In this document: piece after piece, positions 4,138-29,548 of the stretch | How the letters are laid out: each line of letters begins with the position of its first letter | Position numbering within the stretch: the stretch's first letter is position 1 | Source: Acidobacteriota bacterium | GTDB lineage: Bacteria; Acidobacteriota; JAAYUB01 | Reading direction: 5' to 3' | Assembly (NCBI GenBank): GCA_029565065.1 | Contig: JAKQOW010000024.1 | Coordinates: 1-64,000, forward strand | DNA: 64,000 nucleotides | Notes under the pieces: model-generated | Databases searched by the model: none | Seen by the model: only the letters and a program-made list of their open reading frames with translations | What the model was told of the DNA's origin: nothing | Program-made: the position numbers and the translations under genes

Positions 4138-4902
4138 ATGACCACGGACCGTTCCACCGACAAGTCCACCGTCTCAGTGGTGCTCCCTCTACTCGAATGC
4201 GAGGACACGGTGCTGAACCTGGTGGAGGAAGTCCACCAGCGCATCACGGTCAAGATACCCGGCGCCGAGATCGTCGCCGTAGACGCCGGCAGCCGCGACC
4301 ATACCTGGGGCATCCTGCGCGAGCTGACCACGGCGTATGACGAGCTGAAGATTTACCGCAGCAAGGACCCCATGCCGGTGGGCGGAGCCAGCCTGCGCGG
4401 TTTTCTGGAGGCGACGGGCAAGTTCGTCTTCCACCTGGAGCCCCATTGTCCCTGGCGGGTGGATCTGTTCTGGGACATGGCCCGCCTGCGCGCCAACGCG
4501 GGCCGCGGAGCGGTGTTCGCCGTGCGCGGACCGTCGCTGCGGGGCATGAAGGAAAAGGTGTCCGACCGGTTGTTCCGCGACGAAGCGCTGGACGGTCTGA
4601 CCGTCGACATCCCGGACACCGGCTTTCCGGCCCAGCTCTTCTCCAAGGCCGATTTCGACAAGATCCAGATCCTGATGCCTCCCGACCTGCTCGCCCCCGG
4701 GCTGACGCTTTTCCTGCTGTTCCGTTCCTTCAACCGCGAGGTGCACCTGATGAAGCCGGACGGTCTTCACGAACTGAAGCGCTCCCGGCGGGAACCGCCG
4801 CCCTGCTTCACCTCGCTGGCCGCATTCCGCGACAGCATCCACCAGATCAAGGAAGTCCGGCGCAACCTGGAGCGCATCCAGGGCCTGCTGGATCTGCGCT
4901 GA
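4138..4902 (+). CDS. Glycosyltransferase family 2-like protein lacking the DxD motif
   Basis: The 254-residue soluble protein begins like a GT-A glycosyltransferase: VSVVLPLLECEDTV (about 12-25) and EIVAVDAGSRDHT (about 44-56), matching the nucleotide-sugar fold of family 2 enzymes. Where family 2 members normally carry a DxD metal/sugar-nucleotide motif after the G(K)(F/Y)V strand, this protein reads HLEPHCPW (99-106), with no aspartate pair. It also lacks the membrane helices of dolichol-phosphate mannosyltransferase-like enzymes. It may be inactive, use a different metal ligand, or bind a ligand only. It stands alone between the Nudix operon and the BatD-like gene. A -10-like TACAAT lies at 4097-4102. 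Confidence 0.7.
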   Translation: MTTDRSTDKSTVSVVLPLLECEDTVLNLVEEVHQRITVKIPGAEIVAVDAGSRDHTWGILRELTTAYDELKIYRSKDPMPVGGASLRGFLEATGKFVFHLEPHCPWRVDLFWDMARLRANAGRGAVFAVRGPSLRGMKEKVSDRLFRDEALDGLTVDIPDTGFPAQLFSKADFDKIQILMPPDLLAPGLTLFLLFRSFNREVHLMKPDGLHELKRSRREPPPCFTSLAAFRDSIHQIKEVRRNLERIQGLLDLR

Positions 4903-5025
4903 GTCTCCCCGGCATTTCGCCGGCCGTCAGCTCGGCCGGGATAATGGCCGATCCCATTCCCGGCAGAAGGATGATACAATCCGCTCGAATGCCCCGGTGA
5001 TTCGCCGGGATCTGGCGGGGCGGAG

Positions 5026-6027
5026 ATGCGCACACCTTCCATTGTTTACCGACTCACTCAGCGGACGTTCAACCGGCTGCTGGTCCTCACGCTCGCCGGC
5101 GGCTTGGTGCTGGCGACACCGGCCGCATGGCTTCGGTCGCAGGATCCGGGCGCGCCCCGCGCCGTGGATGCGCGCGTGGCGGCCGCGGCTGGACCGCTGC
5201 TGATCGGGACGCCGTTTGTCGTGGAGATCCGGGTCCAGGCGCCGCCGGCCGGCCGGTGGGTGCTTCCCGAATGCCCGCGGCGTTACGGCGACTTCACGCT
5301 GCGGACCGTTCGCGTGGAATCATCCGGCCGGCCGGGTTATGACGTGATCCGACTGGAGCTGCAGGCGTTCAGAACCGGACGGATTCCGCTACCGGCCGTG
5401 CCGGTTGTCTGGCGCAGCCCATCCGGCGCCGAAATTCCGTTGACGTACCCACCCGGCGAGATCACCGTGGCCGGGCTGTTGCGGGGGGCGGGGCCCTTCG
5501 CCCCCCAGCCGCCCCGGGGCGGCCTGACGGCGCCCGCCGGCGGCTTCCCCGTCTGGTTGTGGATCCTGAGCGGAGCGGTCCTGATCGCTGCCGCCGCCGC
5601 GGGTTGGTGGCTCTGGCGACGAAGCCGGCTGCCGGCGCCGGATTTCGCCTCGCCGCGGGAAGTCAATCTGGCTTACTTCCGGGAGCGGCTGGACCGGGTG
5701 TGGGGCCAGCGCGCCGCCGCCCGTTCCCCCCAGGAGCTGTCGGGCCGGCTGGTGGATGTCTTTCGGGACTTCCTGGCGTGGCGGTTTCGCACCAACCTGC
5801 ACGCCCTGACCACAACCGAGCTCTGCTTGCGGCTCGCCGGCCCGGAGGCGGCCGGACCGGAGGGCATCGAGCCGATCCGGACCGTCCTGGCTGCCGCCGA
5901 CGAGTCACGTTTTTCCTTCACCGCGGCCGACGCCGACGCCCTCGTGGCCGCGTTCGTCGAGATCATGGAGCGACTGGGATCGCGTGATGCCCAACCTGCC
6001 GTCGACACTCAAATTCGCTCAGCCTGA
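5026..6027 (+). CDS. BatD/DUF4381-like membrane protein
   Basis: A 333-residue protein with an N-terminal signal or membrane segment (about 17-37), a beta-rich extracytoplasmic region (about 45-160) resembling the oxygen-tolerance BatD N-terminus, a central membrane helix (about 179-197), and a cytoplasmic helical tail (about 205-320) of the kind seen in DUF4381/BatD proteins. The following VWA gene overlaps its 3' end, the gene order expected of aerotolerance (Bat) loci. No MoxR-type ATPase or BatB/C gene is present. The family call rests on architecture and neighbour, so it is moderate. A TACAAT -10 lies at 4975-4980. Confidence 0.6.
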   Translation: MRTPSIVYRLTQRTFNRLLVLTLAGGLVLATPAAWLRSQDPGAPRAVDARVAAAAGPLLIGTPFVVEIRVQAPPAGRWVLPECPRRYGDFTLRTVRVESSGRPGYDVIRLELQAFRTGRIPLPAVPVVWRSPSGAEIPLTYPPGEITVAGLLRGAGPFAPQPPRGGLTAPAGGFPVWLWILSGAVLIAAAAAGWWLWRRSRLPAPDFASPREVNLAYFRERLDRVWGQRAAARSPQELSGRLVDVFRDFLAWRFRTNLHALTTTELCLRLAGPEAAGPEGIEPIRTVLAAADESRFSFTAADADALVAAFVEIMERLGSRDAQPAVDTQIRSA

Positions 6028-6997
6028 GGGGTGGCTTTGGGCCCTTGCGGCGCTGGCCGTGCTGGTGGTGGTACGCCTGCTCGTCTTCCGCCGGCGCCGC
6101 CCCGGCATCTATTTCCCGGGCGCGGAATGGCTGGCGGCGCACACCGGCCCGGCCCGCCTGCTGCCCCAGCTGGCCAACGGCCTGATCGCGCTGGCCGCGC
6201 TGGCGCTGCTCCTGGCCCTGGGCCGGCCCTACACGGAGACGATCCGCGAGGAGACGGCCGCCGAAGGCGTGGATATCGTCCTCGTGCTGGACATCTCCAC
6301 CTCCATGTCCGCGGAGGATTTCGAGCCCGACAACCGCCTGGCTTCGGCCAAGGCGGTCATCCGGGATTTCATCCGCCGCCGTCCCCACGACCGGCTGGCC
6401 CTCATCACGTTCGCCGCGGACGCCTATGTGGTCTGCCCCCTGACCGCCGATCACTATTCCCTGGAGACCCTGCTGGATTCGGTGGAGCTGATACCCTTCG
6501 ATGCCGACGGCACCGCCATCGGCATGGCGCTGGCCTCGGCGGTCAACCGGCTGCGGGACTCCCCGGCGCGGAGCCGCCTGGCCGTCCTCCTCACCGACGG
6601 CGCCAACAACCGCGGCGAAGTGTCGCCGCTCCAGGCGGCGGAGTTCTGCAAGCGGTTCAACGTCCGCGTGTACACGGCCGGGATCGGCACGGGCGCCGAG
6701 ACCCGCGTGATGGCGCGCGCCCCCGACGGTTCGCCCACCTGGATCCGGACGCGGGTGGACTTCGATCCCCAGGTGCTCACCGAGATCGCCCGCGCCACCG
6801 GCGGCCAGCCCTTCCTCGCATCCGACACGGCCGGTCTGGACCAGGTCTACCGCGAAATCGACCGGATGGAAAAGACCGTGCTCGAAAAACGGCGCCTTCC
6901 GGACCGTCGCGAATTGCTGCCGCTCTGCCTGTGGTTCGCCCTGGGCTGCGTGCTGGCGGCCGCGGCTATGTACAGCCTGGCGCCCGCCTGCATCTGA
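5987..6997 (+). CDS. von Willebrand factor A domain membrane protein (BatA-like)
   Basis: The 336-residue protein has two N-terminal membrane segments (about 15-34 and 58-79), a VWA domain (about 95-290) with an intact MIDAS metal site (DISTSMS from Asp102, then later Thr and LTDGANN), and a C-terminal helix (about 312-333). This is the BatA/BatB layout. It starts inside the end of the BatD-like gene (41-base overlap). ATG 5987 was chosen; GTG 5984 is directly before it and in frame. VWA proteins of this type act with a MoxR ATPase, which is not in the window. Confidence 0.85.
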   Translation: MPNLPSTLKFAQPEGWLWALAALAVLVVVRLLVFRRRRPGIYFPGAEWLAAHTGPARLLPQLANGLIALAALALLLALGRPYTETIREETAAEGVDIVLVLDISTSMSAEDFEPDNRLASAKAVIRDFIRRRPHDRLALITFAADAYVVCPLTADHYSLETLLDSVELIPFDADGTAIGMALASAVNRLRDSPARSRLAVLLTDGANNRGEVSPLQAAEFCKRFNVRVYTAGIGTGAETRVMARAPDGSPTWIRTRVDFDPQVLTEIARATGGQPFLASDTAGLDQVYREIDRMEKTVLEKRRLPDRRELLPLCLWFALGCVLAAAAMYSLAPACI

Positions 6998-7046
6998 TGT
7001 GCTGGCGTCGGCGACAGGGCGCAATTACCATAATAGTTAAATATTC

Positions 7047-7075
7047 TTCCAGGATCACACGACCTGCATTATAAT
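7047..7075 (+). promoter_or_regulatory. Probable promoter of the acyl-CoA mutase gene
   Basis: A perfect TATAAT at 7070-7075 lies in an AT-rich stretch; the hexamer 17 bases upstream (TTCCAG, 7047-7052) is a weak -35. A strong GGAGGAGTGACC ribosome binding site precedes the ATG at 7109. Confidence 0.45.
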
Positions 7076-7108
7076 TTCCTTTTGCCATCTCGCACGGAGG
7101 AGTGACCC

Positions 7109-8698
<1,590 letters not shown>

Positions 8699-8746
8699 CG
8701 GACGGCCGCCCGCACCCCGGACCGCCCGCCAGCCCATGGATTGCGA

Positions 8747-8778
8747 ACAGCCGGCCTTCGGGCCGGCTGTCCATTTTC
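8747..8778 (+). terminator. Rho-independent terminator after the mutase gene
   Basis: A perfect 10-bp stem (8747-8756 with 8761-8770) is closed by a TTCG tetraloop and followed by CCATTTTC. The U-tract is short. Confidence 0.7.
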
Positions 8779-8886
8779 AACCGACCTGATCCCGCTCCCG
8801 GACGCCGGTCCCACGGCGCGGCTTGCCCAAACATCCGGCCGACTCGCCCGTATGATTCATCATCATTCCAGTCATCGGGGGAGACC

Positions 8887-10107
8887 ATGCATGCTGATCC
8901 AAGTTTCCGTCCGCACATCCGGCGACGGGCGCCGGCGGTCGCGCTGGTGCTGCTGATCGTCGGCCTGGGTGTTTTCTGCACCGGAATCCAGGCCGTCGAG
9001 CCCGGGGAGCCTCTGACCATCGGCCGTTACGTCAAGTACTGGTCGAAGGCACTTGGCGAGGAGCGCACCCTCCTCATCACCACCCCCGCCGGTTATGAAC
9101 GCCTCGACCGGCGTCACCCCGTGGTCTACGTCCTTGATGGCGAGGGCAATCACATCCTGGCCGCCGCGGTGACCAATTTTCTGGCCCGCAACAACCAGAT
9201 GCCTCCGGCCATCGTGGTGAGCATCACCAACACAAACCGGACCCGCGATTTCACGCCCACCACAGCAGCCGACCGTCCCGGCTCCGGTGGCGGCGCCAAA
9301 TTCATGGAGTTTTTCAAGACCGAACTGGTCCCGTGGGTGGAGCAGAATTACCGGACGGAGCCGTACCGGATTCTCGTCGGCCACTCGCTGTGCGGCATGT
9401 ATGCGATCTGGACGATGCTCACCGAACCCGACCTGTTCCAGGGCCTGGTCGCCGTCAGCCCCTATGTCATGTGGGACAATGACTATGTGGTGCGTCTGGC
9501 GGCGGAGCGGCTGTCCGCCATGCCGGACACGCGCCGCAGTCTCTTCATCACCCTCGGGAACGAACCCGACTACAAGCCCGCCCTGGGCCGGTTCCTGAAA
9601 CTGATGAAGGAAAAGGCCCCGAAAAGTACGGCGTGCCGTTTTGTCCCGTTGGAAAACGAAACTCACGGCAGTGTCCTGCTGGAAAGCATCCACCGCGGGC
9701 TGGCGGCCATCTACTCCGGCTGGCAGCCTTCCGGCGACCTCCTCACTCTGGGTCTCAAGGGGCTGGAGGATCACTACCGCCAGCTCAGCCGGAAATACGG
9801 GTACACGATCGAGGTGCCCGAGGCCATGCTCAACCAGCTGGGGTATCTGTACCTGCAGCAGCGCAAGGACAGCGACGCGGCGATCACCGTGTTCCGGCGG
9901 AACGTGGAACTGTTCCCCAACTCGGCCAACGTGTACGATTCGCTGGGTGAAGCCCTGGAGCAGACGGGACAGCTGGAAGAGGCGGCAAGGGCCTACCGGG
10001 AGGCGGTGAGCCGGGCGGAGAAAAGTCCAGACGCCAACCTGAACATCTTCCGGCAGAACCTGGCCCGGGCCGAGGCGGCTTGTAAGGAAAAATCCAAAAC
10101 ACCCTGA
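8887..10107 (+). CDS. Secreted esterase (esterase D/IroE-type) with C-terminal TPR repeats
   Basis: The 406-residue protein has a signal peptide or anchor (about 16-36), an alpha/beta hydrolase domain of the putative esterase family (about 45-280) with YVLDGEGN, nucleophile GHSLCG (Ser167), and ETHGSV carrying the likely catalytic His, then a tail of about two TPR units (about 310-385: LGYLYLQQRKDSDAAITVF, YDSLGEALEQTGQLEEAARAY). The same hydrolase plus TPR layout is common in environmental bacteria; substrates range from S-formylglutathione to siderophore esters, so the function is open. The start at 8887 follows GGGGGAGACC. It stands alone behind a terminator. Confidence 0.85.
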   Translation: MHADPSFRPHIRRRAPAVALVLLIVGLGVFCTGIQAVEPGEPLTIGRYVKYWSKALGEERTLLITTPAGYERLDRRHPVVYVLDGEGNHILAAAVTNFLARNNQMPPAIVVSITNTNRTRDFTPTTAADRPGSGGGAKFMEFFKTELVPWVEQNYRTEPYRILVGHSLCGMYAIWTMLTEPDLFQGLVAVSPYVMWDNDYVVRLAAERLSAMPDTRRSLFITLGNEPDYKPALGRFLKLMKEKAPKSTACRFVPLENETHGSVLLESIHRGLAAIYSGWQPSGDLLTLGLKGLEDHYRQLSRKYGYTIEVPEAMLNQLGYLYLQQRKDSDAAITVFRRNVELFPNSANVYDSLGEALEQTGQLEEAARAYREAVSRAEKSPDANLNIFRQNLARAEAACKEKSKTP

Positions 10108-10167: not shown

Positions 10168-11157
10168 TCAGTACGTGGTGCTGTGGGAGGTGTCTTCGTC
10201 CAGTCCGCCGGGCGTGACCAGGACGAAGGGATCAGCGGAGCCTTCCTTGTACAGCACGGTGCGGTTGCGACCGAGTTCCTTGGCCCGGTACATGCACTCG
10301 TCGCTCCGGGCGATGAGTTGCTCGGGCGTGGCCATGGCGGCGGACTTCTCGGCGATGCCGATGCTCACCGTGATGCGGATCTCATGACCATCCTTGCTGG
10401 TGAAGGTGTGCGATTCGATGAGCTTGCGCAGCTTCTCCGCCACGTAGATCGCCTGCATGCCCGAGGTCTCCGCCAGGATGATGATGAACTCCTCGCCGCC
10501 GTACCGGCAGGCGATGTCGGTGGCCCGCAGGTTGGACAGAAGCAGCCGCCCCAGTTCCGACAGCACCTCGCTGCCGGTCAGATGGTCGTACGTGTCGTTG
10601 ACCAGTTTGAAATGATCGAGATCCAGAAAAAGCAGGGTCACCGGTTGCGTCGGCTGCCGGCCCCGGAACAGGAACTCCAGGTGGTTCATCAGGTACTTTC
10701 GATTGTAGAGGCTGGTCAGGTCGTCGAAGGTGATGAGGTGGTAGAGCTTTTCGTGGAACTCGCTCTCATCGGCGTCGGCGAGCTCGAACTTCAGCACGGT
10801 GCCGCCCACCCGGATTTTATCGCCGTTGACCAGCCGCCGCTTCTGGATCCGGTCGCCGTTGACCGACGTGCCGTTGGCGCTCTGCAGGTCGATCACCGTG
10901 ACGTAGGCCGGGGTGGTCTCCAGCAGGCAATGCTTCCGGCTGACCGTCTTGTCGTTCACGCGGATGCTGGCGGTGGAACCGCGGCCCAGCGACATGGCCG
11001 CCGCGGTCAACTTGAAAATCTGGCCCGTATCGTTGCCGTCGATCACGATCAGGGCGGGGATCTTCTGACCTGCCCGGAGTTTGGCCTCCAGCTCCTCGGT
11101 CCGGAGGATCTGGGTGGTCTCATCCAGCGGTCCTGTGGCTTCCTTGCCCTTGTTCAT
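10168..11157 (-). CDS. FHA-GGDEF diguanylate cyclase
   Basis: A 329-residue cytoplasmic protein: FHA domain at about 34-122 (LGRGSTASIRV, SRKHC, NGTSVNG phosphothreonine-binding loops) followed by a GGDEF domain at about 140-320. The active site reads YGGEEF (GGEEF 220-224), and the inhibitory RxxD site (211-214, RATD) is placed five residues upstream, so it should make c-di-GMP and be product-inhibited. The FHA domain suggests control by a phosphorylated partner; a Ser/Thr kinase is encoded at 36.4 kb, a link that is only inference. ATG 11157 was chosen over an in-frame TTG at 11172 because it follows a GAGGG element. Confidence 0.92.
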   Translation of the reverse strand: MNKGKEATGPLDETTQILRTEELEAKLRAGQKIPALIVIDGNDTGQIFKLTAAAMSLGRGSTASIRVNDKTVSRKHCLLETTPAYVTVIDLQSANGTSVNGDRIQKRRLVNGDKIRVGGTVLKFELADADESEFHEKLYHLITFDDLTSLYNRKYLMNHLEFLFRGRQPTQPVTLLFLDLDHFKLVNDTYDHLTGSEVLSELGRLLLSNLRATDIACRYGGEEFIIILAETSGMQAIYVAEKLRKLIESHTFTSKDGHEIRITVSIGIAEKSAAMATPEQLIARSDECMYRAKELGRNRTVLYKEGSADPFVLVTPGGLDEDTSHSTTY

Positions 11158-11180
11158 AGCCCTCAGGTACAAGCAGCCAC

Positions 11181-11209
11181 ATTATATTGAATCCCGAGGA
11201 CCGGTACAA
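11181..11209 (-). promoter_or_regulatory. Sigma70-type promoter of the FHA-GGDEF gene
   Basis: On the minus strand TTGTAC (11209-11204) and a perfect TATAAT (11186-11181) are 17 bases apart. The leader to the ATG at 11157 would be under 20 bases. Confidence 0.65.
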
Positions 11210-11222
11210 GCTCCAAACCGAT

Positions 11223-11274
11223 GGAACAGTTTCGAAAAAAAACAACAACTGTTCCGCTACAAGGAACAGTTTCG
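11223..11274. promoter_or_regulatory. Three GGAACAGTT elements between two divergent promoters
   Basis: GGAACAGTTTCG occurs twice as a direct repeat (11223-11234 and 11263-11274, starts 40 bases apart), with the inverted core AACTGTTCC between them (11247-11255). The right copy ends two bases before the -35 of the radical SAM gene and the left copy starts 14 bases behind the -35 of the FHA-GGDEF gene. This placement is that of an operator cluster for an unknown regulator. I found no other copy elsewhere in the window by eye. Confidence 0.6.
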
Positions 11275-11276
11275 CT

Positions 11277-11305
11277 TTGACTGGGTGATGCGCCGGACCT
11301 ATAAT
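11277..11305 (+). promoter_or_regulatory. Near-consensus sigma70 promoter of the Tes-like radical SAM gene
   Basis: TTGACT at 11277-11282 and a perfect TATAAT at 11300-11305 are separated by 17 bases. Transcription should start near 11312. Confidence 0.8.
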
Positions 11306-11312
11306 CGCCGCC

Positions 11313-11332
11313 GTCGCCGGAGAGCCGGCGAC
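11313..11332 (+). other. Hairpin at the 5' end of the radical SAM transcript
   Basis: GTCGCCGG (11313-11320) pairs perfectly with CCGGCGAC (11325-11332) around an AGAG loop. It begins at the predicted transcription start and may stabilise the mRNA 5' end; it does not cover the ribosome binding region. Confidence 0.45.
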
Positions 11333-11362
11333 GCATTCTCACTTCAGCATGGAGCATCCGTC

Positions 11363-12985
11363 ATGAAAACCAAGACCGCCAAAGAAAAAGCCGCGGCCGC
11401 CCGCCAGACCCTGTGCGGCGCCGAGATCGAGCCCTTCAATCGGGACCTGCCGTACCAGACCGTCTCGCTGTGTCCGGAGTGCAGCCGGAAGATCGACGCC
11501 CGGCTCTTCGAAGAGAACGGCAAGGTGTACATGGAAAAAACGTGCCCCGACCACGGCTACTGCCGCGACTTGATTTTTTCCGATGTGGATATCTACCGGC
11601 AGGCCTTGTCGTGGCACTACGATATCGGCGAGGGGGTTTCCAATCCGGCGGTGGCTAAAGCCGCCTCCTGTCCCGACGATTGCGGCATGTGCGACCTTCA
11701 TATCAGCCACACCGTCCTGTCCAACGTGGACCTGACCAACCGCTGCAACCTGACCTGTCCCGTCTGCTTCGCCAACGCCAACGTCCAGGACTACATCTAC
11801 GAGCCCTCGTTCGAGCAGGTCAAGCAGATGCTGCAGACGCTGCGCGATGAGCGCCCGGTGCACGGCCGGGTGGTGCAGTTCTCCGGCGGCGAACCCACCA
11901 TGCACCCCGACTGGTTCCGGATCCTGACGCTGGCCAACGAGATGAACTTCGCCCATGTCCAGTGCGCCACCAACGGCATCAAGTTCGCCGACCTCGACTT
12001 CGCCATGAAGAGCAAGGAAGCCGGCCTGCACACCCTGTATCTCCAGTTCGACGGTCTCGATCCGAAGCTCTACAAGGAGATCCGCGGCTCCGAAAAGCTC
12101 CTGGACATCAAGCTCAAGGCCATCGAGAACGTCCGCAAGGCCGGCATGAAGATCGTCTACGTGCCCACCATCGTGGGCGGCGTCAACGACGACCAGGTGG
12201 TTCCCATCCTCCAGTTCGCCCTGGACAACATCGACGTCAGCTCCGGCATCAGCTTCCAGCCCGTGGCCCTGACCGGCCGCATCGACGACAAGGAGAGGGA
12301 AAAGCTGCGTTTCACCCTCTCCGACCTGGCGCTGCGCATCAATGAGACCGGCTTCACCACCAAGGCGGACTGGTTCCCACTCTCCTGCACCTCGCCCATC
12401 TCCCAGCTCATCTCCGCCATGCGCGGCGATCCGACCTGCCACATCACCTGCCACCCCACCTGCGGCATCGGCACCTACTTCTTCGTGGACCAGAACAAGA
12501 AACCCACGCCCATCACCCGCTTCGTCAACGTCAAGGGGCTCCTAGACGACATGCAGAAGCAGGCGAAGAGCATGGAGGCCACCACCTGGTTCCGCGGCGC
12601 CTACAAGTTCTTCACCGGCGCCAGCACCCTGGCCAACATGAAGAAGCACTTCATCGCCGACAAGGCGCCCGAGGGACTGTCCTTCACCCGCTTCCTGCAG
12701 ACCCTCGAGGGGATGCTGGACAAGAAGGCCGGCCGCGGCGAGCTGGACGGCACCTACACCTACAAGACGCTGCTCGTGGCCGGGATGCACTTCATGGACA
12801 GCTACAACTACGACATCGACCGCGTCAAGCGGTGCGTCATCCACTACTCGGCACCCGACGGCAAGCTTTATCCCTTCTGCGCGTACAACTCCGGCCTCGT
12901 CTTCCGCGACAAGGTCGAGAAGGAGTTCTCCGTGCCGAAGAGCGAATACAAGAAGCAGCACGGCGGCTGTTCCGACTGCTGCTGA
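11363..12985 (+). CDS. Cysteine-rich radical SAM enzyme, tetraether/membrane-spanning lipid synthase (Tes/MJ0619) family
   Basis: The 540-residue protein has the radical SAM motif CNLTCPVC (Cys128, 132, 135) and a GGE motif (SGGEP). The N-terminus carries SLCPEC (Cys37, 40) and KTCPDHGYC (Cys61, His64, Cys67), then CPDDCGMC (Cys103, 107, 110). More Cys follow in the second half (CTSP, CHITCHPTCG) and the protein ends GGCSDCC. This N-terminal pattern and overall plan match the MJ0619/Tes family. Known family chemistry is radical C-C coupling of lipid tails to make membrane-spanning lipids in archaea; homologues are proposed to do so in bacteria. MJ0619 itself was earlier linked to pterin methylation. 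The bacterial substrate here is inference. ATG 11363 is used; it has its own promoter and terminator. Confidence 0.75.
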   Translation: MKTKTAKEKAAAARQTLCGAEIEPFNRDLPYQTVSLCPECSRKIDARLFEENGKVYMEKTCPDHGYCRDLIFSDVDIYRQALSWHYDIGEGVSNPAVAKAASCPDDCGMCDLHISHTVLSNVDLTNRCNLTCPVCFANANVQDYIYEPSFEQVKQMLQTLRDERPVHGRVVQFSGGEPTMHPDWFRILTLANEMNFAHVQCATNGIKFADLDFAMKSKEAGLHTLYLQFDGLDPKLYKEIRGSEKLLDIKLKAIENVRKAGMKIVYVPTIVGGVNDDQVVPILQFALDNIDVSSGISFQPVALTGRIDDKEREKLRFTLSDLALRINETGFTTKADWFPLSCTSPISQLISAMRGDPTCHITCHPTCGIGTYFFVDQNKKPTPITRFVNVKGLLDDMQKQAKSMEATTWFRGAYKFFTGASTLANMKKHFIADKAPEGLSFTRFLQTLEGMLDKKAGRGELDGTYTYKTLLVAGMHFMDSYNYDIDRVKRCVIHYSAPDGKLYPFCAYNSGLVFRDKVEKEFSVPKSEYKKQHGGCSDCC

Positions 12986-13006: not shown

Positions 13007-13045
13007 AACGAGTCGCCGCCTGCAAGCGGCGACTCGTCGTTTTTT
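13007..13045 (+). terminator. Strong rho-independent terminator after the radical SAM gene
   Basis: A perfect 12-bp stem (13008-13019 with 13026-13037), a six-base loop and a run of six T (13040-13045). Confidence 0.9.
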
Positions 13046-26735: not shown

Positions 26736-27239
26736 TTATAGAGGAAGGCCGGGCCATTTGCAATACCATTCCACGGCATGCCGGTCGTCGCATGCGGCCA
26801 GCAGCTGGGTGACGGTCCGACCGAGCACGGGATGCCGCACGGCGGAAGCGATTTCCGCCAGCGGCACCAGCACGAACCGTCGCCGCGCCATGACGGGGTG
26901 AGGGATGATCAGATCGGGCTCGGCGATCACATCCCGGCCGAACAGGAGGATGTCGATATCGAGCGGCCGGGGCGCGTTGCGTTCGGCCGGCCGCCTTCCC
27001 GCGGCGGCTTCCGCCGACTGGATCAGCGCCAGCAGCTCCCGCGGCTTCAAGCGGGTCAGCAGGCCGGCTGCGGCATTGAGATAGTGGGGCTGGGGCGGTC
27101 CGCCCACGGGTTCGGTCCGGTAGAGCGAGGAGACGGCGGTCACCTTCACCCCGCCGGCGGCCAGGCGAGCCAGTCCCGCCGCCAGACCGGCTGCGCGATC
27201 GCCCAAATTGGCGCCCAGCCCCACCCAGACCGTCCTCAA
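26736..27239 (-). CDS. folK: HPPK, 2-amino-4-hydroxy-6-hydroxymethyldihydropteridine pyrophosphokinase
   Basis: A 167-residue enzyme of folate synthesis that transfers pyrophosphate from ATP to 6-hydroxymethyl-dihydropterin. It begins with GLGANLGDR, contains YRTEPVGGPPQPHYLNA and has the signature RPLDIDILLFG, followed by IPHPVMARRRFVLVPLAEI. The start is most likely TTG 27239, whose bases overlap the lptD stop (TTGA) and which has a GGAG element upstream; a GTG at 27224 would truncate the first strand. The pathway partners FolP and FolB are not in the window. Confidence 0.93.
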   Translation of the reverse strand: MRTVWVGLGANLGDRAAGLAAGLARLAAGGVKVTAVSSLYRTEPVGGPPQPHYLNAAAGLLTRLKPRELLALIQSAEAAAGRRPAERNAPRPLDIDILLFGRDVIAEPDLIIPHPVMARRRFVLVPLAEIASAVRHPVLGRTVTQLLAACDDRHAVEWYCKWPGLPL

Positions 27240-29548
27240 AAGAATCTCCGGCCCAGTTTCTGGAGTGTCCCGAAATCGCCGATACCGCGCAGATACATGG
27301 CGAAACGAATGTCGCCCGAGTCCCGGCGGTTGGCGATGTCGAACTTGGTGTACTCCACCGAAAATCCGATGCAATCAAAGTAGTAGTTGGTGCGGATGTA
27401 GAAATTGTCCAGGTTGCTGTTTTCCAGGTTGTACGAGACATTGGCTTCGATGCTGAAACCCTGGTAAGGCCTGCCCAATCCCACCGAGGCTTGCAGGTAG
27501 TCGTTGTCCACCAGCTGGTCGCCCTCGGTATAGAGGCGCAGGAAGGCCAGCGAAGCGAACAGCCAGTCATGGTTGTACGTCCCGGCGGCGGACCAATCGC
27601 GCAATTCCCCGCGAACCGGATCGTACTCCAGGCGAAGCTGCCCGCTGATGGTCGGCGCCGGATGGACCTGGACGAGCGCCTGGATGGGTGAAAAATCCCG
27701 GGGTTCCCGCGCCGCCGCATAAGGGCTGAATGTATAGTACGGCGCGATCTGGTTGTTGAAGCCCGTCTCAAAGCTGCCATAAAAATCGGGATCAAAAAAA
27801 TACTTCTGGCGAAGGCCCATAGTGACCCATTCCCACGGCCGGTCCCCCCGACGGCTGAAGAACCGCTGTACCACCCAGTATTCCAGTTCATTGGTCCCCA
27901 CGACCGCATCCTGCCAATCAAACTGGATGATGCGGGCAAAATCCTCGACCTCCGAAACCCACCGCCAGGTCACCCCCGTTTCAATGACGTGCTTGACCGG
28001 CACGCCGAAGGGATGGAAGACGCGGAACAGGCGGGGCGCGTCCAGGCGGGCTTCCATGGCCGCGAGGTAGCGCCCGACTCCCGACCGGTCCGCGTCAACG
28101 GCCGTCGCGTCCTCCGGCGGGTCGGACGGGTAACTGCGCGAGTAGTACGTCGCCCGGAGCGCGGGTTCCAGCGACAAGCGGAACGCGCCGAACCGCAGGG
28201 GCACCAGGAGCCGCGGGTACACATCCAGTCGGCTCACCCCCTGCGGCGTGTTGAACTGCATGTCCACGGTGCCGCCGCCGGCGGGATCGGCCTCCTTCCA
28301 GTTGACCTTCTTGAACATGTACGCCGCCGAACTGTCCAAAAACAGATAGGCGGGCCAGGAGCCCAGGGAGCGGCCGATCACGCGGAACGAGGCTTCCGGC
28401 AGGGCGCGCTCCAGCACCTGGAAGTCGTCGAAGTAGTACTGGGTCCGGTTGAATTCCAGATTGACGGAGTAATCCGACCAACTGCGGCTGATAAACCCGC
28501 GCAGCGCCTCGTCCGGACGGACGGCGCCCACAAAATCCGATTCGTATACCTGGCGGAAGACGATATTGGAGACCACGTTGGCGGAGATGGCCCCGTGGAA
28601 ACCCCGGGCGAACAGAAAATAGCCGTCCACGTTGACGGCGTTTCCCCCCTGGTCTTTACGATCGTCGACGGAGTAGCTGGAAAAATTGACATAGGAGAGT
28701 TCCGAAAACCGCCCCCGGAAGGTCGTGCCCAGGCCGAATCCGCGCTCAGTGTAGTAATCCCCCTGCAGGATCAGATCCATGCTCCGACCCAGCGTGAGGT
28801 ATAAGGCGTCGGATAGTTTGTGGCCCTTGTCGTCGGAATAGCCGTATGAGGGGATCATGAAGCCCGACTTGCGCTCCTTCTTCGGCAGGGGAAGCCGGAT
28901 CCAGGGCACGTAGAACGTCGGCACGCCGAACAGCCGGAACACGCCGTGCGTCACCGTGGCTGATTTGTCCTTGACCACCTGGGTCTCCCGGCTGCCCAGG
29001 CTCCAGTGGGGGTGGTCGAACTGACAGGTGGTCACGTTGCCCTGGTGGAAGACGTATTCATCGGGCCCGGTCTGCTCGGCCTCGGCGCAGACCAGACGCA
29101 CAAAATTGTCCGCCACGCCGCGCGTCTTGACGAAGCGACCCTTCCGCTCCGCTACGTTATACTCAAACGACTCGCAGGTCAGCTCCTGCAGTCCGCGCCG
29201 GAAGACGATGCCGCCGTGCGCCGAAATAGTGCGGGTGTTGCTGTCATAGGCGATTTCTTCGCCCCGCACCTCGATATCCCGGTACCGAACAGACACGTCG
29301 CCGCTGGCCCGGAAAACACCACGCTCAGATGTTTGCGCCCGCGAGCGGATGACGACGGGCTCGCCCTCCACCGGAATGACGGTTTCAACGAACGTCGGCT
29401 CATCCGCGGGTGCCGGGGGCTGGGGCGCCGGCGCCGGCTCCTGGGCGCCCAGCGGCGTGCCCGGCAGACACCCGGCCACGATCAGAATCACCAGGAGCAG
29501 CCCTCGGGCGGCCAGCCGATCGCGGATTAACGTTACGGTTGCACTCAT
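27236..29548 (-). CDS. lptD: LPS-assembly outer-membrane protein LptD
   Basis: A 770-residue protein with a signal sequence (about 15-35), an OstA-like beta-jellyroll (about 65-170: VIRSRAQTSERGVFRASGDV, then NTRTISAHGGIVF) and a long C-terminal beta-barrel (about 200-770) ending in an aromatic residue (RRFF). The region VPWIRLPLPKKERKSGFMIPSYGYS is the conserved start of the barrel. With LptE it inserts lipopolysaccharide into the outer leaflet. It heads the operon lptD-folK-dNK-panC-like-dacB and has its own strong promoter. It is the clearest evidence for an LPS-type outer membrane. Confidence 0.93.
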   Translation of the reverse strand: MSATVTLIRDRLAARGLLLVILIVAGCLPGTPLGAQEPAPAPQPPAPADEPTFVETVIPVEGEPVVIRSRAQTSERGVFRASGDVSVRYRDIEVRGEEIAYDSNTRTISAHGGIVFRRGLQELTCESFEYNVAERKGRFVKTRGVADNFVRLVCAEAEQTGPDEYVFHQGNVTTCQFDHPHWSLGSRETQVVKDKSATVTHGVFRLFGVPTFYVPWIRLPLPKKERKSGFMIPSYGYSDDKGHKLSDALYLTLGRSMDLILQGDYYTERGFGLGTTFRGRFSELSYVNFSSYSVDDRKDQGGNAVNVDGYFLFARGFHGAISANVVSNIVFRQVYESDFVGAVRPDEALRGFISRSWSDYSVNLEFNRTQYYFDDFQVLERALPEASFRVIGRSLGSWPAYLFLDSSAAYMFKKVNWKEADPAGGGTVDMQFNTPQGVSRLDVYPRLLVPLRFGAFRLSLEPALRATYYSRSYPSDPPEDATAVDADRSGVGRYLAAMEARLDAPRLFRVFHPFGVPVKHVIETGVTWRWVSEVEDFARIIQFDWQDAVVGTNELEYWVVQRFFSRRGDRPWEWVTMGLRQKYFFDPDFYGSFETGFNNQIAPYYTFSPYAAAREPRDFSPIQALVQVHPAPTISGQLRLEYDPVRGELRDWSAAGTYNHDWLFASLAFLRLYTEGDQLVDNDYLQASVGLGRPYQGFSIEANVSYNLENSNLDNFYIRTNYYFDCIGFSVEYTKFDIANRRDSGDIRFAMYLRGIGDFGTLQKLGRRFF

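Follow-up and report, generated by a model that had tools for sequence, protein, structure and literature searches.

A tetraether synthase (Tes) family protein in an acidobacterial genome and its association with Ger-like genes

Introduction

The closest described system to the protein examined here is MJ0619 of Methanocaldococcus jannaschii (PDB 7tol and 7tom), the archaeal tetraether synthase (Tes), for which metal ligands and a mechanism are reported (PMC9433317). Bacterial Tes homologues and their role in forming brGDGTs have already been proposed in print, with 456 homologues reported in PMC8941075 and 281 MAGs in PMC11868695; in these two papers bacterial Tes activity is undemonstrated. 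Ca. Solibacter usitatus is described as a brGDGT maker with Tes and PlsAR homologues (PMC10087280), iso-diabolic diglycerol tetraesters are reported for Ca. Koribacter (PMC13274423), and some Halobacteria are described in PMC8941075 as possessing Tes with GDGTs unreported. Mss (Thermotoga, Bacillota), likened to Tes here by its published description, is a radical SAM enzyme that couples the tails of bacterial lipids, with Mss models reported to superpose on Tes (PMC13274423).

The window analysed here, a 64,000-nucleotide stretch from an Acidobacteriota bacterium (GCA_029565065.1, contig JAKQOW010000024.1), encodes a Tes that is ~41% identical to MJ0619 over nearly the whole length and shares its four metal sites and its fold. 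Relative to MJ0619, the window Tes has an N-terminal extension of ~28 residues, minor insertions in the region from about 405 to 460, and a CSDCC tail, and its host is a bacterium in which no match to GGGP synthase was found. The Tes proteins of Solibacter usitatus and Koribacter versatilis, compared by published description, are also from Acidobacteriota, with 40–42% identity to an archaeal Tes and a proposed role in brGDGT synthesis (PMC8941075, PMC10087280), and sequences of the Solibacter type in our tree (Bryobacterales, Solibacteraceae SbA3) group in a clade of their own, 55–58% identical to the window protein. Solibacter is said to possess two Tes homologues, whereas the window genome possesses one. 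A commoner acidobacterial paralogue, here termed group B, combines a radical SAM domain with an HMPTM zinc ribbon as the window Tes does, but is about 640–850 residues long as called, mostly 35–39% identical, and placed in a clade of its own, with no match of that level in the window genome.

The new elements of this study are the adjacency and co-occurrence of Tes and Ger, an operator-like array at tes, the distinction of the window Tes from the group B paralogue, and acidobacterial gene clusters in which Tes accompanies archaeal lipid genes. For the adjacency and co-occurrence, the operator, and these clusters, no prior report was found in searches of open-licence PMC papers by listing and opening lines of abstracts.

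Results

Gene and family assignment

The open reading frame at 11363-12985 encodes a protein of the Tes (tetraether synthase/MJ0619) family, confirming the reading given in the first-pass annotation of this DNA.

11363..12985, + strand: tes, encoding a 540-residue radical SAM tetraether-synthase-family protein (NF045702, PDB 7tol, model superposition).
27236-29548, - strand: LptD-like protein for LPS assembly at the outer membrane, coded by 27239-29548 (PF19838, cut-off 22.5; partial match of 36.7 bits over residues 205-277).

The frame is open over 11081-12985 (+), with the tes start ATG at 11363, a GGAG ending 8 nt before it, and the stop TGA at 12983-12985. The protein scores 570 bits against the NCBIfam Tes equivalog model NF045702 (cut-off 450) and 89 bits against the radical SAM family PF04055, with the GDGT-MAS structure of MJ0619 (PDB 7tol) as its best solved relative (E = 1e-130). 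The orthologue in a sister species is 93% identical and the copy in another family member (G003) 78% identical, with Tes matches over the cut-off in all four family genomes searched. The window genome, labelled G000 in comparisons with others, holds a single Tes of this type, termed Tes-A below, its next match scoring 41 bits. No model named Mss is among the family matches listed for the window protein. A stray archaeal contig was considered as the source of tes and rejected, given these four matches and the recurrence of the neighbouring gene families near tes in G001 and G003. The neighbours themselves (GGDEF-FHA, DUF3300, DUF2950, and methylmalonyl-CoA mutase) give no hint of a pathway. The partial match of the LptD-like protein upholds an earlier remark on the presence of LptD, and fits a two-membrane cell.

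Metal sites and modelled structure

Alignment to MJ0619, using the ligands described in PMC9433317, places four metal sites along the protein, together with a C-terminal tail.

11471..11554, + strand: rubredoxin-like iron site, C37, C40, C61, and H64 (MJ0619 C9, C12, C33, and H36).
11669..11701, + strand: N-terminal auxiliary [4Fe-4S] site, C103, C107, C110, and H113 (MJ0619 C73, C77, C80, and a conserved His).
11744..11767, + strand: radical SAM cluster CX3CX2C, C128, C132, and C135 (PF04055 and alignment).
12461..12880, + strand: C-terminal auxiliary [4Fe-4S] site, C367, C491, and C506, with the labile Met M475 (MJ0619 C338, C455, C470, and M439; alignment).
12968..12982, + strand: Cys-rich C-terminal tail CSDCC, without counterpart in the MJ0619 sequence used and with pLDDT under 50.

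The cysteine motifs picked out in the first-pass annotation are present as described and fall on these sites, with SLCPEC supplying C37 and C40, KTCPDHGYC supplying C61 and H64, and CPDDCGMC supplying C103, C107, and C110, whilst C67 is without counterpart among the MJ0619 ligands. The rubredoxin-like region also matches the HMPTM zinc ribbon PF23545 (67 bits). The conserved histidine corresponding to H113 would be H83 of MJ0619, and C338, C455, and C470 of MJ0619 are the probable ligands of its C-terminal cluster, as judged from their conservation. Tyr495 aligns with Y459 of MJ0619, M439 and Y459 being taken from PMC9433317. Of the 28 MJ0619 positions mapped, 26 are identical in the window protein; the exceptions are C456 (V492 here) and S271 (A302 here), the latter touching adenine through its backbone. 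The alignments show identity to MJ0619 at the C-C-C-H rubredoxin site, the C-C-C-H N-terminal auxiliary site, the CX3CX2C motif, and the C-terminal auxiliary site with its Met. All ligand positions, including C367, M475, C491, and C506, are invariant in an alignment of 39 sequences, comprising the window protein and 38 homologues of 41–78% identity.

An AlphaFold2 model built from this alignment has a mean pLDDT of 86.8 and a pTM of 0.88, and superposes on 7tol with a Z score of 49.6 and an RMSD of 2.0 Å over 476 aligned of 493 residues (model range 28-539), the next fold being MoaA with a Z score of 21.3. The check that had been proposed for the auxiliary-cluster cysteines against Tes therefore comes out in favour of the family assignment, with the ligands aligning with those of MJ0619 and the modelled fold matching nearly end to end.

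Cys-rich tails (CSDCC, GGCC, GCC, and the like) occur in 16 of 115 Tes sequences, duplicates included, all of these being bacterial and none archaeal; the tail of the window protein is disordered in the model.

Phylogeny and distribution

In a quick IQ-TREE search of 105 sequences, with archaeal sampling mostly from Thermoplasmatota, the window protein falls in a 13-member Acidobacteriota clade (SH-aLRT 100) within a 95-member Tes clade (100). The phylogenetic check suggested in the first-pass annotation likewise comes out in favour of the Tes assignment. The larger clade includes a 30-member archaeal-type group (100) containing MJ0619, along with other Acidobacteriota (Terriglobia, Bryobacterales), Planctomycetota, Myxococcota, Nitrospirota, and Latescibacterota. 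The outgroup consisted of ten group B paralogues, which are longer acidobacterial proteins and form their own clade, apart from the window protein and archaeal Tes. Of 133 matches, 16 duplicates or fragments had been removed earlier, and 14 of the 119 prepared rows were then removed as short or near-duplicate, leaving the 105 used.

Among 297 genomes of the phylum, 165 have a Tes-family match at 1e-60 and 34 have a protein of the Tes-A type, defined by a cut-off set by us (E at most 1e-110). Two group B proteins score 328 and 343 bits against the Tes model, below its cut-off of 450, and on these sequence comparisons the window Tes is distinct from the commoner group B paralogue.

In three genomes (G264, G073, and G120; loci L140, L138, and L139) Tes-A and a group B paralogue lie 0.2 to 6 kb apart, an arrangement that suggests joint action or a tandem origin.

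Transcription signals

The region around tes contains an operator-like array, a promoter-like site, and a terminator.

11223..11271, + strand: operator-like array of GGAACAGTT, AACTGTTCC, and GGAACAGTT, in steps of 24 and 16 bp, conserved in members of the order.
11277..11305, + strand: sigma-70-like promoter TTGACT-17-TATAAT, 11 of 12 positions matching (1 site found, 0.3 expected).
13008..13037, + strand: intrinsic terminator with a 12-bp stem followed by a T-run, 22 nt after the stop codon.

As 2 terminator-like sites were found in the region against 2.0 expected from shuffled sequences, the weight given to the terminator rests on its position and stem length. Together with the promoter-like site, it indicates that tes is probably a single-gene transcription unit.

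The array was compared in the five order members with an upstream region (G000, G001, G003, G056, and G068), the contig of G002 starting inside tes, and its end lies exactly 5 bp upstream of the -35 element in all five. The layout in G001 and G003 is that of the window genome, the middle site being off by one in each. In G056 and G068, of another family, the array is extended: 41 bp separate the 24-bp pair from the 16-bp pair, and a variant half-site, GGTACACTA, lies in the interval. When the palindrome is searched with up to 3 mismatches, the tes promoter is the best site of the genome in each of the five (0 to 2 mismatches), the runner-up trailing by three mismatches in the window genome and by one in each of the other four. 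At up to 3 mismatches, 22 sites are found in six genomes against 12 for a reversed control, 5 of the 22 being tes promoters. The exact core CTGTTCC-N7/8-GGAACAG is found in 5 of 18 genomes, recovering the tes promoters of G000, G001, and G003 and missing those of G056 and G068, with one further site each in G000 (C127, N8), G073, and G062. A second palindrome site, at 2 mismatches, is present in G001, G003, and G068 alike, and one recurring sequence is shared by G000, G001, and G002. Neither the core search in 18 genomes nor the palindrome search in six gives convincing further tes-operator sites, though the result is not a clean zero, and half-sites are absent upstream of the ger pair (see below) in G000 and G001. 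A dedicated regulator acting at the putative tes operator is the simplest reading of this pattern.

Ger-like genes in the window genome and beside Tes

The window genome holds exactly one PF09989 gene, on a contig (C90) other than that of tes.

C90:2669-5767: ger-like gene with two PF01869 stretches and PF09989 (DUF2229), followed by a partner gene (domain search of the window genome).

Two PF01869 activation domains with PF09989 are the domain make-up expected of Ger, validated Ger being reported to have two activation domains and to be inseparable by sequence from plasmalogen-forming PlsA (PMC13274423). This gene and its partner are likely to constitute a two-gene Ger/PlsA-like ester-to-ether reductase, and are 53–54% identical to a pair in a planctomycete locus (L111), where a Ger-like protein (two PF01869 stretches and PF09989) and a ~440-residue partner are encoded directly upstream of Tes. 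The same pair is recognised by similarity in L128, another Planctomycetota locus, with two further reading frames separating Ger from its partner; L112 has a fused Ger/partner version beside Tes, and L118 has the partner alone directly upstream of Tes. Within Acidobacteriota, Tes, Ger, and the partner are consecutive on one strand in G202, the Tes of which belongs to the sister group of the window clade, and L072, from Bryobacterales, has a piece of Ger where the contig breaks off, oriented divergently from Tes. These Tes-adjacent relatives lie at ~48–57% identity (40% for the fused L112 version). Among 44 named bacterial Tes loci, with flanks of 0 to 10 kb, a Ger or partner gene is clear in five (L072, L111, L112, L118, and L128), and L108 has a Ger/partner-like neighbour at 27% identity only, which makes adjacency the exception.

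A second radical SAM protein follows Tes in L111 (12058-13536), L115, L118, and L128, planctomycete where named, and in L111 it has a SPASM domain. Its layout resembles that described for the cross-linking enzyme Gms (PMC11186832), and by this analogy Ger, Tes, and the Gms-like gene may form one tetraether cluster in those loci.

Co-occurrence of Tes and Ger

A close Ger type, defined by at least 52% identity and present in 20 genomes, occurs in 15 of the 34 Tes-A genomes and 5 of the 263 others (297 phylum genomes; Fisher 3e-12, relatedness ignored), and at genus level in 11 of 19 compared with 4 of 147 (Fisher 2e-9, again ignoring relatedness). Inclusion of G036, which lies outside the Tes-A set in the main counts (best E 1.2e-71), gives 16 of 35. 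All 20 close-Ger genomes hold some Tes-family protein. Within one family, among the genomes listed, close Ger is found in 3 of 3 Tes-A genomes and in 1 of 28 others (p = 9e-4). With a looser cut (1e-100, any identity) Ger is found in 21 of the 34 Tes-A genomes compared with 32 of the 263 others. The close type is absent from 19 of the 34 Tes-A genomes, and any match at 1e-100 from 13.

A search at 1e-60, run on 34 of the 44 bacterial and 8 of the 36 other named loci (42 out of 80 in total), found Ger-like matches in 28 of the 34 named bacterial Tes genomes, the two weakest being 33% identical, and in none of the eight archaeal. L125, titled 'bacterium', was not counted as bacterial, its match being like that of the archaeal row L126. 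In a small replicate of 294 Planctomycetota genomes, six have a Tes-family match and three Tes-A; a Ger-like gene is present in all three Tes-A genomes compared with 67 of the 294 overall (p = 0.011, two of the three having entered via loci already selected for this study). At 17 archaeal Tes loci there is a nearby gene of one FAD-reductase family, the tested member of which is geranylgeranyl-reductase-like. With Ger accompanying bacterial Tes and the FAD-reductase archaeal Tes, each domain therefore tends to pair Tes with its own tail- or linkage-modifying gene.

Archaeal-type lipid genes in other Acidobacteriota

Two genomes from two other Acidobacteriota families (G263 and G295) encode a Tes that belongs to the MJ0619-type clade. 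The genes after it specify GGGP synthase (PF01884) and a UbiA prenyltransferase, and a geranylgeranyl reductase fused to a ferredoxin lies nearby, joined in G295 by LytB/IspH and polyprenyl synthase.

L214 (G263:C2:329000-348000), 4839-9801: gene set of G263.
L218/L219 (G295:C18): gene set of G295.

The two sets are 50–63% identical to each other. Archaeal contamination is disfavoured by their contigs (553 and 135 kb respectively), on which genes for outer-membrane barrels or TonB receptors are found. Judged by gene content, these appear to be archaeal-type isoprenoid tetraether sets in bacteria. Archaeal lipid genes are known from FCB-group bacteria, where tetraether capacity was described as not judgeable at the time (PMC7852524).

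Discussion

The family assignment, the ligands, the fold, the neighbours in some relatives, the co-occurrence, and the conservation of the operator are observed here; the activity, substrate, and product of the window Tes are inferred. At a probability of roughly two in three, it is a bacterial Tes that couples tails, likely iso-branched, and acts with a Ger-like reductase encoded elsewhere in the genome to give brGDGT-type lipids or their ester/ether intermediates. The suggestion in the first-pass annotation that this genome may make membrane-spanning lipids is strengthened by the Ger-like genes for ether formation, which co-occur with Tes and in some relatives lie next to it.

The mechanism reported for MJ0619, taken with the conservation of its ligands, leads us to propose the same chemistry for the window Tes. 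The radical SAM cluster would generate a 5'-deoxyadenosyl radical that abstracts a hydrogen from the CH3 end of a lipid tail. The C-terminal auxiliary [4Fe-4S] cluster would hold the tail radical pending attack by a further SAM-generated radical, formed on another tail, to give an inert C(sp3)-C(sp3) bond, thereby turning two phospholipids into one membrane-spanning lipid. As no match to PcrB/GGGP synthase is found in G000-G003, archaeal isoprenoid ethers are unlikely substrates, and an archaeal-type isoprenoid substrate in the window genome was set aside. In this acidobacterium the most probable tails are fatty acyl or alkyl chains with iso branches, carried by glycerol lipids of bacterial type, iso-branched tails being natural candidates because their ends resemble phytanyl ends, as argued in PMC8941075. 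The Ger/PlsA-like reductase would turn the ester bonds into ethers, the expected products being brGDGT-type lipids or ester/ether intermediates, and tes would probably be transcribed alone, under its own conserved operator. The brGDGTs of Ca. Solibacter usitatus, with its Tes and PlsAR homologues (PMC10087280), speak for this reading. Counting against it are the placement of tes and ger on different contigs, the absence of tes half-sites upstream of ger, the Tes-A genomes without a Ger match and the genomes with a Ger match but no Tes-A, the rarity of adjacency, the likeness of Ger to PlsA (PMC13274423), and the Halobacteria with Tes and unreported GDGTs (PMC8941075).

The Tes might instead couple ester-bound iso-fatty acids only, yielding iso-diabolic-acid tetraesters, with the Ger-like pair making plasmalogens on other lipids. 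This is unlikely, yet it has points in its favour: the Tes of Ca. Koribacter, which among bacterial Tes comes nearest the archaeal query at 42% identity (PMC8941075), belongs to an organism reported with iso-diabolic tetraesters (PMC13274423), MJ0619 binds ester phosphatidic acid (PMC9433317), and the plasmalogen option draws on the sequence likeness of Ger and PlsA noted above (PMC13274423). However, Ger adjoins Tes in Planctomycetota and in two acidobacterial lineages, co-occurs with it strongly, and has in the window genome the two PF01869 stretches of validated Ger (PMC13274423), all of which speak against an ester-only product. It is more doubtful still that Tes joins both tails of one phospholipid into a macrocycle or cross-links other hydrocarbon chains. 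MJ0619 yields both macrocyclic archaeol and GDGT (PMC9433317), and the presence of another Tes branch (L077 and L109) in an MMPL/acyltransferase/LolA/ketosynthase cluster suggests that Tes substrates may vary, but no such cluster lies beside the window tes, and Tes goes with Ger as expected for brGDGTs.

Least probable is a divergent radical SAM enzyme with some other job, such as a TrsS-like, MoaA-like, or pterin-methylating protein. The window protein does score 325 bits against the model of the TrsS radical SAM (seleno)protein and 73 bits against that of MoaA, but these values lie far below the respective cut-offs of 490 and 284, whereas the Tes score exceeds its own, and both identities were rejected; the predicted fold is likewise much closer to Tes than to MoaA. 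The separate clade of 'MJ0619-type pterin enzymes' anticipated in the first-pass annotation falls away, MJ0619 being the tetraether synthase itself and its pterin-methylase annotation having been judged incorrect (PMC9433317).

The proposed coupling of probably iso-branched tails by Tes, with Ger encoded elsewhere in the genome, can be extended to a broader proposal, which we put forward tentatively and regard as having the odds somewhat against it. Under this proposal Tes-A and the split Ger-A would form a dedicated, regulated brGDGT pathway, with Tes-A as the condensing enzyme that has long been sought in Acidobacteriota for membrane-spanning ether lipids, the more widespread group B as the iso-diabolic-acid enzyme, and the Tes family elsewhere in the phylum working with a GGGP synthase, a prenyltransferase, and a geranylgeranyl reductase of archaeal type. 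One bacterial phylum would then straddle both sides of the lipid divide.

brGDGTs are widely used as soil and sediment thermometers, and their makers and the enzymes involved are still argued over. The window genome is a candidate maker of these 'orphan' lipids, and Tes-A with Ger-A offers a testable two-gene marker for likely brGDGT producers. The putative operator provides a handle on lipid switching, and bears on why brGDGT make-up tracks environment, whilst the occurrence of tes in a two-membrane cell makes it possible to ask directly in which of the two membranes such lipids reside.

The branch represented by L077 (6382-17754) and L109 (6243-17886), labelled Deltaproteobacteria and belonging to Myxococcota by lineage, has its Tes within a cluster that comprises an MMPL exporter, a lipid A-type acyltransferase, LolA, an ABC transporter, an acyl carrier protein, and a ketosynthase, identified through Pfam for most genes of L077 and by similarity for L109. 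Its gene content suggests that the substrate of Tes in these two loci may be a specialised lipid destined for the outer membrane.
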